From: Gemmatimonadales bacterium
GTDB taxonomy: Bacteria; Gemmatimonadota; Gemmatimonadetes; Gemmatimonadales; GWC2-71-9
Direction of reading: 5' to 3'
Assembly: GCA_036279355.1 (NCBI GenBank)
Contig: DASUJH010000012.1
Coordinates: 1-38,628, forward strand
DNA length: 38,628 nucleotides
Made by a program: the position numbers and the translations under genes. Positions 18,979-27,685 of this stretch are shown here, one piece after another (position 1 is the first letter of the stretch; every line of letters begins with the position of its first letter). The notes under the pieces were generated by a model that made no database searches, was not told the DNA's origin, and saw only the letters and a program-made list of their open reading frames with translations.

Positions 18979-19008
18979 AATGTACGGGCGGCGCCGGGAG
19001 CGTGCCAG
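18979..19008 (-). promoter_or_regulatory. Promoter of the GT9 gene (leaderless type)
   Basis: On the minus strand CTGGCA (19008-19003) and TACATT (18984-18979) are separated by 18 nt. The -10 ends 7 nt before GTG 18971, so the transcript would begin at or next to the start codon. It faces away from the porX promoter across a spacer of about 36 bp. Confidence 0.5.
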
Positions 19009-19044
19009 CGTGCCGGCCGCGCGTCGAGGGCGCCCCCCGGCGCG

Positions 19045-19073
19045 TTGAAAGCGCCCGTCACGACCGGTACCTT
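19045..19073 (+). promoter_or_regulatory. Promoter of porX (leaderless type)
   Basis: TTGAAA (19045-19050) and TACCTT (19068-19073) have the ideal 17-nt spacer. Six bases separate the -10 from ATG 19080, so the expected transcription start coincides with the A of the start codon. No SD precedes the ATG. Confidence 0.65.
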
Positions 19074-19079
19074 TCGCCT

Positions 19080-20648
19080 ATGACCCGGCCCAAGAGCATT
19101 CTCTGGGTGGACGATGAGGTGGAGAGCCTCACGTCGCACATCCTGTTCCTGCAGGAGCACGGCTTCACGGTCGAGACTGCCACCCACGGCGACGACGCGA
19201 TCGTTCTGCTCCAGCGGCAGAACTACGGCGTCGTGCTGCTCGACGAGCAGATGCCCGGCCGCCGCGGGCTCGAGCTGTTTCAGTCGATCCGCGCGACCGA
19301 TCACGCGCTTCCCGTCGTCATGGTGACGAAGAGCGAGGAGCCTGAGACCCTCAAGGACGCGATCGGGTCCGAGGTCTCCGACTATCTCGTCAAGCCGGTC
19401 AACCCGCGCCAGATCCTCTCGGTCGTGACCCGCCTGCTCGACGGCGATCGCATTCGCCAGCAGCGGCTCTCCCGCGACTTCGCCACCCGCTTCCGCGAGC
19501 TCGAGTCCCGGCGCGCCGCACCGATGGGCTGGCGCGAGTGGGTCGAGTTGGTGGTCGAGCTGGCCGAATGGGAAGTGCGGCTCGGCCAGGCGGACGAGCC
19601 GGGCTTGCAGGACGCGCTGCGCACGCTGCAGGACAGTCTTCGCGCCGATTTCGCCCGGTACGTGGCGAGGCATTACTCCGGCTGGCTGCACGAGGCCCAC
19701 CGCGACCGGCCGCCGCTTTCGGTCGACATCGGCACCGAGTTTCTCCGCCCGCTCCTCGAGAGCCATCGGCGCGCCATGCTCGTCGTGGTCGACTGCCTCC
19801 GCCTGGATCAATGGGCGATGCTCCGGCCGCTCATCGCCCGCCGGTTCGACATCGAGACGGCGCACTACTTCTCGATCCTGCCGACCGCGACGCCGTTCGC
19901 GCGGAACGCCATCTTCAGCGGGCTCTTTCCGGCGGAGATCGCCGCGCGCTATCCGCAGTGGTGGAGCGACGGCGGCGACGAGGCGAGCCTCAACGGCTAC
20001 GAGGCCGAGCTGCTCGGCGAGCAGCTCCGCGAGCTCACCGGCCGCGCCACGCCGGTGCGCTACGAGAAAGTCTTCACCTCAGCCGACGGCGACGGGCTGC
20101 TCAAGCGGCTGCCCGCGCACCTGGCGCAGGAGGGCGTCACCGCGCTGGTCTTCAACTTTATCGACCAGCTCACCCATGGCCGCACCGAGAACTCCACGCT
20201 GTACGAGGTGGCGCGCGATACGCCTTCGCTCCGCAACCTCACCCGCACCTGGTTCGAGCGCTCGCCGCTCTGGGACGCGCTGCGCGAGGCGGAGCGGCGC
20301 GGGGTGCCGGTGTTGCTCACGACGGATCACGGCTCGATCCACTGCCACACGCCGGCCACGGTCTTCGCCAAGCGCGACACGACCTCGAACCTGCGCTACA
20401 AGTTCGGCGACGATCTCCGGGCCGAGGATCCCGAGGCCGCGCTCGTGGTCGAGGACCTGCCGAGTTTCGGCCTCCCGGCGCAGCTTCCGACCACGCGGCT
20501 CCTGCTCGCCACCGGCGACCGCTTCTTCGTCTACCCGACCAAGCTCAGAGAGTACCAGGCCCGCTACCGGGGATCGTTCCTCCACGGCGGCATCTCACCC
20601 GAAGAAGTAGTGCTGCCGATCGCGCTGCTGCATCCGAGGCGCGGGTAG
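19080..20648 (+). CDS. porX: PorX-like response regulator/PglZ phosphatase
   Basis: The 522-aa protein joins a receiver domain (about 6-120) to a PglZ-type alkaline-phosphatase-superfamily domain (about 200-520). The receiver has the acidic pocket D11-D12, phospho-acceptor Asp55 (VVLLDEQMPG), Thr83 and Lys105. The phosphatase domain shows likely metal ligands Asp238 (VVVDCLRLDQW), Thr271 in TATPFARNAIFSG, Asp362/His366, Asp416-His417 (TTDHGS) and His502 (SFLHGG). In Bacteroidota, PorX works with the kinase PorY to control type IX secretion genes and its phosphatase domain hydrolyses oligonucleotide-type signals. No PorY or secretion genes are in the window. ATG 19080 is set by its promoter; an upstream in-frame ATG at 19002 precedes that promoter. 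Confidence 0.92.
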   Translation: MTRPKSILWVDDEVESLTSHILFLQEHGFTVETATHGDDAIVLLQRQNYGVVLLDEQMPGRRGLELFQSIRATDHALPVVMVTKSEEPETLKDAIGSEVSDYLVKPVNPRQILSVVTRLLDGDRIRQQRLSRDFATRFRELESRRAAPMGWREWVELVVELAEWEVRLGQADEPGLQDALRTLQDSLRADFARYVARHYSGWLHEAHRDRPPLSVDIGTEFLRPLLESHRRAMLVVVDCLRLDQWAMLRPLIARRFDIETAHYFSILPTATPFARNAIFSGLFPAEIAARYPQWWSDGGDEASLNGYEAELLGEQLRELTGRATPVRYEKVFTSADGDGLLKRLPAHLAQEGVTALVFNFIDQLTHGRTENSTLYEVARDTPSLRNLTRTWFERSPLWDALREAERRGVPVLLTTDHGSIHCHTPATVFAKRDTTSNLRYKFGDDLRAEDPEAALVVEDLPSFGLPAQLPTTRLLLATGDRFFVYPTKLREYQARYRGSFLHGGISPEEVVLPIALLHPRRG

Positions 20649-22850: not shown

Positions 22851-22885
22851 GGCGGCGCGGCGCGCGATGTCGCCGCTACGCCGCC
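22851..22885. terminator. GC-rich stem-loop between convergent genes
   Basis: GGCGGCG (22851-22857) pairs with CGCCGCC (22879-22885), and inner GCGGCG/CGCCGC can extend it. It sits where the GT4 and patatin-ferredoxin genes converge. There is no T run, so it is only a weak terminator candidate. Confidence 0.35.
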
Positions 22886-23994
22886 GTGGCCGGCTCCGCG
22901 GGATCGAGCGTGATGGCGCCGCTTGGACACCCCTGCACGCACGCCTCGTCGAGCGGCGACCACTGCTGCACCGGCGCCAGCACGTGTGCCTTGCCCCGGC
23001 GGCCCAGGCGAAAAACGGTCGGCGCCTGAGCGGCGCAGACGCCGCATCCCACGCACCGCGTCTCGTCCACCTGCACGCGCACCCAGCGGGTCGGGTGCAG
23101 GCCGGGCCCGAGCTGGTCGAGCCGGCAGCCGAGGCGGTCGAGCGCATCGAGCGTAGCGGCGTAACCCGCGTCGAGCAGCTCGGCCGTGCGGTCGAAGGCG
23201 AACATGGAGATGTCTTCCACCGGCGGTTGCACCAGCACCAGCGGGGGGCCCTTCCAGTGGCGCAGCGTCGCCTCGATCTGGGTTTGCATCACGATCTCGA
23301 GCCCGCGGATGTAGGTCGCGGCGAAACCCTGCTTCTCGATGTCGGCCCGGCGCACGCTCGTCGCCGCCACGTTCACCGCAAGGATGGGCCACGAGGCCGC
23401 GGCTGCTGCGACGCGCACCGGAAGGTTCTCGAGCACCGCGCCGTCCACGTACCAGCGTCCGCGGATCTCGCGGGGCGGAAAGATGCCGGGAAGCGCGCAG
23501 GAGGCGAACACCACGTCGGCGAGCGGTGCATCGTCGAATCCGGGCACCCCCCACGCGACCTGGGCGCCCGAGTTGATGTCGACGGTGTTGATGAGAAGAC
23601 GGCGGCGGACATCGCGGAGATTGCACTCGCCCACCAGCTCGGCGATCAGCATCTCGAGCGGCTCGCGGCGGTACACGGCGGGCGAGAGCATGCGGCGGAG
23701 CGCCATGTCGGCGTGCGCTACCTTGAACACGTGGCGCCGCTGCACCGCGAGCGCCCGCGCGCGCATCTCGTCGGTGGGGATCCCGCAGGCCCATGCCGCG
23801 CCCACCAGCGACCCCATGCTCGAGCCGACCACGAGCGCCGGCGTGAGCCCCCGCTCGTCGAGCGCCTGAAACACGCCGACGTGAGCGAGGCCCTTCATAC
23901 CCCCGCCACTCAACACAAGTGTGAACGGCGTGATCTGCCCCACCTGCTTGCCTCGGGAGATATTGGCCACGTAACCTTGCGCTCGCATGGGCAT
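22876..23994 (-). CDS. Patatin-like phospholipase fused to a ferredoxin
   Basis: The 372-aa product has a full patatin domain (about 24-285): oxyanion loop SGGGMKG (29-35), nucleophile Ser59 in GSSMG, and the dyad Asp184 in DGAVLENLP. The C-terminus (about 303-366) is a ferredoxin: C314-x2-C317-x2-C320 (CVGCGVC), then a CP motif at Cys356 that completes one 4Fe-4S site, plus an extra Cys352. Patatins hydrolyse acyl esters of lipids. The attached cluster suggests redox control or electron transfer coupled to lipid turnover, which is inference. ATG 23994 has AGGA 6 nt upstream; GTG 24012 and ATG 23988 are alternatives. One uninterrupted frame rules out simple adjacency. Confidence 0.92.
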   Translation of the reverse strand: MPMRAQGYVANISRGKQVGQITPFTLVLSGGGMKGLAHVGVFQALDERGLTPALVVGSSMGSLVGAAWACGIPTDEMRARALAVQRRHVFKVAHADMALRRMLSPAVYRREPLEMLIAELVGECNLRDVRRRLLINTVDINSGAQVAWGVPGFDDAPLADVVFASCALPGIFPPREIRGRWYVDGAVLENLPVRVAAAAASWPILAVNVAATSVRRADIEKQGFAATYIRGLEIVMQTQIEATLRHWKGPPLVLVQPPVEDISMFAFDRTAELLDAGYAATLDALDRLGCRLDQLGPGLHPTRWVRVQVDETRCVGCGVCAAQAPTVFRLGRRGKAHVLAPVQQWSPLDEACVQGCPSGAITLDPAEPATAA

Positions 23995-24033
23995 GTGCAA
24001 TCCTGGTGCCACCGGTAGCCAATCTCGAGCCCG

Positions 24034-24954
24034 ATGCCGACACTTGCAGTGATCCCGGTCAAGAACGAAGCTCCCGAGGCGCCGGCTCCGGAGGCCACGC
24101 CCCGCGCCGGACTACCCATCGGCCCGGCCGCGGTGCTGCTCGATCGCTGGCGGCGCGACCGGTTTTTCCGCCTTGGCGCCGTGCTCGTGGCCGTGGTGGT
24201 GATGGCCGCCGCCTTCGCACCGTGGCTCGCGCCACACGATCCGATCCACGGCGACCTGCGCGACGCGTACCTCCTGCATCCGAGCCTCCACTACCTCCTC
24301 GGCACCGACTCGGAGGGGCGCGACGTGCTGAGCCGCGTCCTCTATGGAGCGCGGCTGTCGCTCGCCGTGGGCGTCATTTCGCAGGCGGTGGCGGTGACGC
24401 TGGGCGTGTTGCTCGGACTCGTCGCCGGCTTCTACGGCCGGTGGGTCGATGCGCTCATCATGCGGCTCGCCGACATCACGCTCGCCTTTCCCACGCTGCT
24501 CCTGCTCATCGCGGTGGCGGCCGCGGTGCGGCCGTCGCTGCCGCTCGTGTTCGTCGTCATCGGCGTCGTGGGCTGGGCCGGGATGGCGCGCATCGTCCGC
24601 GGCCAGGTGCTCGTGCTCCGGGGCGCCGAGTACGTCACGGCGGCGCGGGCGCTCGGCGCGCGCGACCGGCGGGTCCTCTGGCGCCATCTCTTGCCCAACG
24701 TGCAGGCGCAGGTCATCATCGCCGCCACCCTCGGCGCGGCCGGCGCCATCATGGCCGAGGCGGCGCTCTCGTTCGTCGGGCTCGGCGCGCAGCCGCCGAC
24801 GCCGAGCTGGGGCGCCATGGTGGCTGACGGGCGCGACCTGCTGCGGGTGGCGCCGTGGGTCTCGTTCGCGCCCGGCATCGCGATCGGCATGGCGGTGCTC
24901 GGGTTCAATCTCGTGGGCGATGCGCTCCGGGAGGCGTTCGATCCCCGGCTTTGA
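24034..24954 (+). CDS. Oligopeptide-type ABC transporter permease (OppC/DppC family)
   Basis: The 306-aa protein has the OppC N-terminal segment followed by about six membrane spans. LGTDSEGRDVLSRVLYGARLSL and the EAA loop EYVTAARALGARDRR...HLLPN, which docks the ATPase, are both diagnostic. The C-terminus has LSFVGLGAQPPTPSWGAM. It would import peptides or related solutes with an OppB partner, two ATPases and a binding protein. None of these is nearby, so it is an orphan. Its start lies only about 40 bp from the divergent patatin gene, and no clear SD is seen. Confidence 0.93.
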   Translation: MPTLAVIPVKNEAPEAPAPEATPRAGLPIGPAAVLLDRWRRDRFFRLGAVLVAVVVMAAAFAPWLAPHDPIHGDLRDAYLLHPSLHYLLGTDSEGRDVLSRVLYGARLSLAVGVISQAVAVTLGVLLGLVAGFYGRWVDALIMRLADITLAFPTLLLLIAVAAAVRPSLPLVFVVIGVVGWAGMARIVRGQVLVLRGAEYVTAARALGARDRRVLWRHLLPNVQAQVIIAATLGAAGAIMAEAALSFVGLGAQPPTPSWGAMVADGRDLLRVAPWVSFAPGIAIGMAVLGFNLVGDALREAFDPRL

Positions 24955-24955
24955 C

Positions 24956-26098
24956 GTGGGCCGCCTTCGGGCGGAAGAATTTCCCTGGACCGCCGAGGCG
25001 ATCTACCTGAACGCCGCCGGCATCGGCCCGCTGCCGGAGCGCACCCGCCGCGTGGGCGAAGAGTGGGCGCGGATGAAGGCGGCGCCGCACCAGCTCCCGG
25101 ACCGATTGCTCTACGCCACGCTGACCGACGCGCGCCGGCTGGCCGCGCGGCTCATCAACGCGGAGCCCGATGAGATCGCGCTCGCCACCAACACGAGCTA
25201 CGGGCTCAACCTCGCCGCCCGCGCGCTCCCGCTCGGCCCCGGCGACATCGTGCTCGCGAGCGACCGCGAATTTCCCGCCAACGTGTATCCCTGGATGGCG
25301 CTCCGGGACCGCGGCGTCGCGTTCGAGCTGGCGCCGACGACGGCCGAGGGATGGCCGGACGAGGACGCGCTCGTCGCGCGCATCGCGGACCCGCGTGTGC
25401 GGGTGCTCGCGGTGTCGCTCACCCAGTTCGCCAACGGCTACACGGTGGACCTGGCGCGGCTTTCCGCGGCAGCGCGGGAGACGGAGACCTTTCTCGTGGT
25501 CGACGCGATCCAGGGCGTGGGCCAGCTTCCGGTCGACGTGCGCGCCATGCCCGTGGATGTGCTCTCCTGCGGGGCGCAGAAGTGGCTGCTCTCCCCCTGG
25601 GGCTCGGGCTTCGTGTACGTGCGGCGCGAGCTCATCGCGGCGCTCCCGCCCGCCGATGTGGGTTGGCTCGCCTTCGAGGGCACCGACGATTTCACGCGGC
25701 TCACCGGATACGACACCCGCCTGCGCGCCAACGCGCGGCGGTACGAGCTGGTGACGCTTCCGTTCCAGGACTTTGCCGGAATGAATGCGTCGCTCGGCCT
25801 GCTGCTCGAGCTTGGGATCGACGAAATCCGCCGCCACCTGGCCCGCGTGTGTGACCCGATTCTCGAGTGGGCGGCGCGGCGCGGTATGCGGCTCACCTCG
25901 CCCTGCGGTCCACGCGATCCGCACGGGTCCGCCATTCTCTGCATCGAGCTGCCGGACATCGCCGCCGCGCACCAGGCGCTTCGCGCGGCGGGTGTGACCG
26001 CCACGGTACGCGAGGGCGCCATCCGCCTGAGCCCCCACGTCTACAACACTCCCGAGGAGCTGGCCCGCGTCGCGGACGTGCTGGACCGCGCGCGCTGA
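24956..26098 (+). CDS. Class V aminotransferase-fold PLP enzyme
   Basis: The 380-aa protein is a fold-type I PLP enzyme of the cysteine desulfurase/isopenicillin N epimerase group. It starts IYLNAAGIGPLP, has ATNTSYGLN for phosphate binding, Asp183 in VVDAIQGVGQ for the pyridine N, and the Schiff-base Lys209 in SCGAQKWLL. The C-terminal IRLSPHVYNTPEEL lacks the catalytic Cys of true cysteine desulfurases, so a lyase, epimerase or transaminase is more likely. GTG 24956 starts one base after the permease stop (TGACGTG), implying translational coupling. Confidence 0.88.
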   Translation: MGRLRAEEFPWTAEAIYLNAAGIGPLPERTRRVGEEWARMKAAPHQLPDRLLYATLTDARRLAARLINAEPDEIALATNTSYGLNLAARALPLGPGDIVLASDREFPANVYPWMALRDRGVAFELAPTTAEGWPDEDALVARIADPRVRVLAVSLTQFANGYTVDLARLSAAARETETFLVVDAIQGVGQLPVDVRAMPVDVLSCGAQKWLLSPWGSGFVYVRRELIAALPPADVGWLAFEGTDDFTRLTGYDTRLRANARRYELVTLPFQDFAGMNASLGLLLELGIDEIRRHLARVCDPILEWAARRGMRLTSPCGPRDPHGSAILCIELPDIAAAHQALRAAGVTATVREGAIRLSPHVYNTPEELARVADVLDRAR

Positions 26099-26125: not shown

Positions 26126-27685
26126 ATGGCGCAATCCTTCACCGATATGCTGCGCGACGGCTACGGCTTCACCGACCCTTCGGTGATCCTCGGCGCGGCC
26201 GTCGACGGCCAGCACACCTATCCCGAGCCCAAGATCAAGATCCCGCTCGGTATGATGAACCGGCACGGGCTAATCGCCGGCGCCACCGGCACCGGCAAGA
26301 CCAAGACGCTCCAATTTCTCGCCGAGCAGCTCTCGGCGGCTGGCGTGCCGGTGTTCGCCGCCGACATCAAGGGCGATCTCTCCGGCATCGCGGTGCCGGG
26401 CGAGGCGAACGACAAGATCGCCGCCCGCGCAAAGGACGTGGGTTATGACTGGAAACCCAAGGGCATCCCGACCGAATTCGTGAGCCTGAGCGGCAAGCTC
26501 GGCGTGCAGCTCCGCGCCACGGTCAGCTCGTTCGGTCCGATTCTCCTGGCCAAGGTGCTCTCGCTCAACGAGACCCAGTCGAGCGTGCTGGCGATGGTTT
26601 TCAAGTACGCAGACGACAAGGGACTGCCGCTGCTCGATCTGCCGGACCTGCGCGCCCTGCTCCAGTTCCTCACCTCGGACGAAGGCAAACCGGAGCTCGC
26701 CCAGTACGGCGGGATGTCGACCGCGTCCGTCGGTGTGCTGCTCCGTAGCATGGTGGAGCTCGAAACCCAGGGAGCCGATCAGTTCTTCGGCGAGCCGGAG
26801 TTCGACGTGAAGGAGTGCCTGCAGACGACGTCGGACGGGCGCGGCGTCGTCACCTGCCTCGAGCTGGCCGACGTGCAGGATAAGCCGAAGCTCTACTCGA
26901 CATTTCTCATGTGGCTCCTGGCCGAGCTGTACCATAACCTGCCCGAGGCGGGGGACCTGCCCAGGCCGAAGCTGGTGTTCTTCTTCGACGAGGCGCACCT
27001 GCTCTTCGACGACGCCTCGAAGGCGTTCCTGGAGCAGGTGGAGCAGGTGGTGCGGCTCATTCGCTCGAAGGGTGTGGGCGTCTATTTCGTCACCCAGACG
27101 CCCAAGGACGTGCCGGACTCGGTGCTGGCGCAACTGGGCAACCGGGTGCAGCACGCGCTCCGGGCGCACACGCCGAACGACGAGGCCGCGCTCCGCGCCA
27201 CGGTGCGCACGTTTCCCAAGACCGGCTTCTACGATCTCGAGGAAACGCTTACATCGCTCGGCATCGGCGAGGCGGTGGTGACCGCGCTCGATCCGCGCGG
27301 CGTTCCGACGCCGGTCGTGGCCGCCCGATTCATTCCGCCCGAGTCGCGCATGGGGCCGCTCACGCCGGACGAGCTGCAGGCCGACGTGCGGCAGTCGCCG
27401 CTGCTCGCGACGTACGGGAAGGCGGTGGACCGGGAGAGCGCGCGCGAGATGCTGGCGAAGCGGATGCAGCAGACCGAGCCGGCGGGCGACGGGGCGGGTG
27501 GCGGCACCGCGCAACCCGCCAAGAGCGGACGAGCTGCCAAGACGATTGCGCAGGTGGCGGGCGGCGCGCTGGTCGGCGCGCTTACGTCGTCCTTCGGGCG
27601 GACCGTCGGGCGCGAAGTGGTGCGCGGAATCTTCGGGATGCTCGGCGCCAAGCCAAGCTCGGGGAGTCGGCGCAGCCGCTGGTAG
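26126..27685 (+). CDS. HerA-like DUF853 (YjgR-type) ATPase
   Basis: The 519-aa protein is a RecA/FtsK-HerA superfamily P-loop ATPase. Walker A is GATGTGKT (Lys59) and Walker B is KLVFFFDEAHLLF (around 290-300), with TQTPKDVP as a sensor-like segment. Overall order and length match E. coli YjgR/DUF853, whose role is not known. The C-terminal 60 residues include a Gly/Ala-rich, weakly hydrophobic stretch and a basic end. No nuclease such as NurA is adjacent. The 27 nt before ATG 26126 contain no SD. Confidence 0.9.
   Translation: MAQSFTDMLRDGYGFTDPSVILGAAVDGQHTYPEPKIKIPLGMMNRHGLIAGATGTGKTKTLQFLAEQLSAAGVPVFAADIKGDLSGIAVPGEANDKIAARAKDVGYDWKPKGIPTEFVSLSGKLGVQLRATVSSFGPILLAKVLSLNETQSSVLAMVFKYADDKGLPLLDLPDLRALLQFLTSDEGKPELAQYGGMSTASVGVLLRSMVELETQGADQFFGEPEFDVKECLQTTSDGRGVVTCLELADVQDKPKLYSTFLMWLLAELYHNLPEAGDLPRPKLVFFFDEAHLLFDDASKAFLEQVEQVVRLIRSKGVGVYFVTQTPKDVPDSVLAQLGNRVQHALRAHTPNDEAALRATVRTFPKTGFYDLEETLTSLGIGEAVVTALDPRGVPTPVVAARFIPPESRMGPLTPDELQADVRQSPLLATYGKAVDRESAREMLAKRMQQTEPAGDGAGGGTAQPAKSGRAAKTIAQVAGGALVGALTSSFGRTVGREVVRGIFGMLGAKPSSGSRRSRW

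Follow-up and report, generated by a model that had tools for sequence, protein, structure and literature searches.

The window, by which we mean the whole 38,628-nucleotide stretch of DNA that was analysed, carries a gene in which a patatin hydrolase and a C-terminal single-cluster ferredoxin are joined in one protein, and this fusion is kept across the order Gemmatimonadales. The most economical reading, to which we give a probability of about 0.4, is that the protein is a cytosolic patatin-type acyl hydrolase whose fused cluster regulates it according to redox state, oxygen or iron. Both domains are well known; what appears to be new is their combination, its single origin and its retention across the order, none of which is described in the open-access literature that we found, where titles and abstracts gave no description of a patatin-ferredoxin fusion. 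To our knowledge, control of patatins by a fused ferredoxin has not been described either.

The earlier note on this DNA had reported one continuous frame holding a patatin and a C-terminal ferredoxin, and this was borne out, as both domains score above their Pfam gathering cut-offs. The start of the gene, which it had placed at 23994, is on the other hand disfavoured. Judged from the sequence alignment, the true start is probably the GTG at 23943 (residue 24), because the relatives have ATG, GTG or TTG at the aligned residue, some of them have in-frame stops just 5' of it, and the window's GTG is preceded by a GAGG 7 nt ahead. An AlphaFold2 (AF2) model made from a 26-row alignment predicted both domains well (mean pLDDT 87.4, pTM 0.87), and pLDDT values below 50 were confined to residues 1-26, which lie mostly 5' of the proposed start. 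The features are listed in Table 1.

Table 1. Positions in the window of the patatin-ferredoxin gene, its parts and the genes divergent from it.
Feature	Position	Strand	Remarks
Longest ORF of the patatin-ferredoxin gene	22876-24012	-	378 codons, uninterrupted
Fused patatin-ferredoxin gene, likeliest coding region	22876..23943	-	GTG start, ~355 aa
Patatin hydrolase domain, residues ~28-301	23110..23931	-	PF01734 and PlpD fold match
Ser65 codon	23818-23820	-	Nucleophile, GSSMG
Asp190 codon	23443-23445	-	DGA motif
Conserved linker GxxPxR, residues ~302-309	23086..23109	-	Alignment of 48 fused proteins
Single-cluster ferredoxin domain, residues ~310-372	22897..23085	-	PF13459/PF13370 and T. maritima ferredoxin fold match
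Divergent OppC/DppC-type ABC permease gene	24034..24954	+	PF00528, PF12911
Class-V PLP enzyme gene (Aminotran_5)	24953..26098	+	PF00266, E 3.4e-36

The patatin half matches PF01734 over residues 32-202 (E 2.4e-34, 119.7 bits against a cut-off of 27.7). The profile score, a glycine-rich oxyanion loop, a GxSxG serine and a DG[AG] aspartate together mark it as a patatin-like hydrolase; the loop, GGGMKG with G36-G38, was read directly from the sequence. Across the aligned fused proteins G37, G38, S65, G67, D190, G191 and A192 are invariant. The closest solved fold to residues 28-298 is that of PlpD from Pseudomonas aeruginosa (5fya/5fqu; Z 31.6, 2.5 Å, 31% identity over 249 residues), with which the window protein shares the patatin fold and the Ser-Asp dyad. 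PlpD belongs to the type Vd proteins, is secreted and has a barrel, whereas the window protein has no barrel domain and carries the C-terminal ferredoxin instead. The best NCBIfam match was RssA (NF007623), with 84.8 bits over residues 31-215, thus ending before the ferredoxin and staying below the cut-off of 272. The CapV/CapE phospholipases of CBASS, which are activated by cyclic nucleotides, also have the patatin fold (Z 23-27), but their chains align to the patatin half only, and the CBASS_lipase/CapV profile (NF041079) gave 70.7 bits against a cut-off of 200. The patatin half is predicted to act in the cytosol as a serine acyl hydrolase like other bacterial patatins, PlpD-like in fold and RssA-like in sequence.

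The ferredoxin half matches PF13459 (Fer4_15; E 4.1e-8, 34.2 bits against a cut-off of 22.4), PF13370 (Fer4_13; E 4.9e-7, 30.8 against 24.5) and PF00037 (25 against 21.1). The Fer4_15 and Fer4_13 scores and a CxxCxxC...CP pattern with four cysteines place it among the single-cluster ferredoxins, and the predicted [4Fe-4S] ligands are Cys320, Cys323 and Cys326 in CVGCGVC and Cys362 in the CP motif. Residues 311-369 superpose on the Thermotoga maritima ferredoxin (1vjw/1rof) at 1.1 Å over 57 residues, with 44% identity. The T. maritima ferredoxin and the Fer4_15/Fer4_13 ferredoxins share this fold and cysteine pattern, but they are free-standing electron carriers, and in the alignment the former has no counterpart of W351 of the window protein. 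All four cluster cysteines are identical in the 48 fused proteins compared, as are P307 and the C362-P363 pair; the GxxPxR linker is near-invariant, and W351 is a tryptophan in 46 of the 48 and a phenylalanine in two.

The motifs, read directly from the sequence and conserved in the relatives, confirm that all catalytic residues and all four cluster cysteines are present. They are complete in both halves, and purifying selection acts on each of the two, which shows that neither is decaying, in agreement with the earlier claim that neither is degenerate. In ten close pairs the patatin half had a dN/dS of about 0.07-0.30 and the ferredoxin half one of about 0.03-0.23, with dN lower in the latter in every pair. 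The importance given to a fifth cysteine did not survive the comparison. This residue, C358, is a cysteine in one of 39 proteins, the window protein alone, and since most relatives have Y or F there it is incidental; for lack of conservation it was rejected as an additional cluster ligand.

The match extends through the ferredoxin in 43 of 61 near relatives. The phylum sample comprised 298 genomes, 172 from Gemmatimonadales and 126 others, and a tally of match spans placed the fused gene in about 128 of the 172, spread over three families (46/65 in the window's own family, 79/103 in the second and 3/4 in the third); this tally includes two genes truncated at a contig end, one in G212 and one in G227, whose sequence L113 stops inside the ferredoxin. 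In the 126 other genomes all matches among those listed (down to ~1e-65) stop close to where the patatin domain ends. Other phyla were covered by one pattern-based genome scan with a sensitivity for close relatives, which leaves room for fusions elsewhere. The best matches on plasmids were plain patatins, and no relatives were found in the viral contigs searched. One Sinorhizobium plasmid match appeared to extend into the ferredoxin region, but it lacks the CxxCxxC motif and was rejected.

This distribution also bears on whether a patatin gene and a separate ferredoxin gene were joined by a sequencing or assembly error, or by chance read-through. Dozens of independent assemblies, spread over three families and some of them single-contig genomes such as G043 (4,636,964 bases), share the junction and the conserved linker. 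The homologues were also inspected for two separate genes, and the split state was not found: at 18 non-fused loci from the phylum no convincing ferredoxin gene adjoins the patatin. An error-made fusion is thus refuted by the junction conserved across the order, and the chance that the two genes were joined in such a way is negligible.

In a tree of patatin domains all fused proteins form one clade (support 100/99) set against 19 non-fused patatins of the phylum, which shows a single gain of the ferredoxin, in the ancestor of those Gemmatimonadales lineages that have the fusion. Embedded within this clade are two lineages that lost it again. In the first (L013, L014, L036/L092) LADRPAA is where the gene stops, the neighbours are the same, with a glycosyltransferase downstream and the permease and class-V enzyme upstream, and one conserved patatin column is altered (V168I) while the rest are kept. 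These loci make up a natural ferredoxin-deletion control. The second, L112, has a long branch and an altered C terminus, and no ferredoxin could be recognised in any frame near the end of the gene. The losses with the patatin kept imply that the hydrolase can persist without the ferredoxin, and yet, despite this tolerated loss, the ferredoxin is nearly always retained. The genome of the window has a second patatin without a ferredoxin (L002, 1177-2082, minus strand), beside an NAD synthetase-like gene, which falls in a separate clade; its row in the tree was mis-trimmed, with 37% of the columns filled, and the fused clade is untouched by this.

Hydrolysis by patatins proceeds through the Ser-Asp dyad and does not use electrons. 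The ferredoxin must therefore have a regulatory or a stabilising role or perform some second function, and redox gating or electron linkage of the hydrolase appears to be the best explanation. If the ferredoxin domain binds its [4Fe-4S] cluster, the state of the cluster, reduced or oxidised, or intact or lost, may modulate the hydrolase, and the turnover of phospholipids or acyl esters would in this way be coupled to redox status, oxygen or iron. In that case the ferredoxin would be a regulatory module outside the catalytic chemistry, since the latter needs no electrons, and the persistence of the hydrolase in the lineages that lost the ferredoxin is what can be expected of a regulatory add-on. 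It is a tentative proposal that the fused proteins constitute an order-wide family of phospholipases whose activity is switched by the [4Fe-4S] ferredoxin, with redox, oxygen or iron as the gate. What counts against regulation is that the nearest relatives of the ferredoxin, the T. maritima ferredoxin and the partners of P450s, are electron-transfer proteins and not known sensors.

A structural cluster, one that keeps the C terminus or the interface of an oligomer stable and has no role in redox or sensing, would account for the strict conservation of the ligands, the linker and W351, which fits a packed domain, and Fe-S clusters of non-redox enzymes are often structural. The tolerated loss of the ferredoxin, in a lineage of the same family that keeps the patatin half, argues against an essential structural role, and many patatins lack such a domain, so that we regard this explanation as rather doubtful.

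The ferredoxin could also be an electron shuttle, with the patatin half binding lipid or membrane, or delivering a fatty acid, and the electrons passing to an oxidoreductase that acts on the released acyl chain. The resemblance of the ferredoxin fold to electron-transfer ferredoxins and P450 partners speaks for this, and so does the existence of a natural oxidase-ferredoxin fusion of the CYP51 type (6mcw), which has a single-cluster ferredoxin at the C terminus of the enzyme (match 472-540); CYP51 is however an oxidase that uses electrons, whereas the patatin partner here uses none. The natural CYP51-ferredoxin fusion of Methylococcus is discussed in PMC9519919. Our search for clients covered P450 and FA_desaturase only. 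P450 was undetected in 35 and FA_desaturase in 18 of the 43 fused genomes, that of the window included in both cases, and 15 of the 43 were without both. A P450 or a desaturase was therefore rejected as a general dedicated acceptor, and electron donation to such enzymes is unlikely to be the general function. Furthermore, no redox enzyme consistently accompanies the gene, and the invariant catalytic serine and aspartate imply that the patatin half is not merely a lipid binder. Taken together, we consider the shuttle improbable.

Returning to regulation by the cluster, a strictly conserved ferredoxin on a hydrolase that does not depend on electrons points to a lipid turnover coupled to the Fe-S or redox state. 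That a fusion of soil bacteria has been kept across the Gemmatimonadales suggests that the breakdown of lipids or membranes is tied to redox or iron state in a phylum whose physiology is little known. Given the order-wide conservation, the lineage without a ferredoxin and carriers whose genomes are complete, the question can be tested directly.

The gene is not without possible partners, contrary to what the earlier note had concluded from the orphan permease, because beyond the permease stands a class-V PLP gene that keeps its divergent placement in all three families. In the first and third families it lies upstream on the opposite strand at seven of nine loci; in the second, which we take to be Gemmatimonadaceae (L082-L091, L093 and L115-L134), it is no more than 4 kb away at 21 of 31. 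There the patatin-ferredoxin gene and the class-V gene are often separated by a gene for an amino-acid permease. Although similar to cysteine desulfurases, the class-V enzyme scores far under every curated cut-off (SufS 94.3 bits against 475), and a cysteine desulfurase of Fe-S assembly was rejected as its identity. An aconitase, named from its sequence and not by a profile search, is usual downstream in the second family (26/31 loci, same strand, less than 350 bp away in 14). The frequent linkage to this [4Fe-4S] enzyme counts for regulation by the cluster, and its confinement to one family, with many intergenic gaps above 1 kb, counts against; as aconitase is not redox-active in catalysis, it does not help the shuttle. 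Elsewhere in the window, a gene of PorX-like architecture, with a PglZ domain joined to a response-regulator receiver (19002-20648, plus strand), lies beside two glycosyltransferase genes, and an ATPase of the HerA_C family (PF05872, 650 bits; 26126-27685, plus strand), which close relatives have too, is encoded near the class-V gene.
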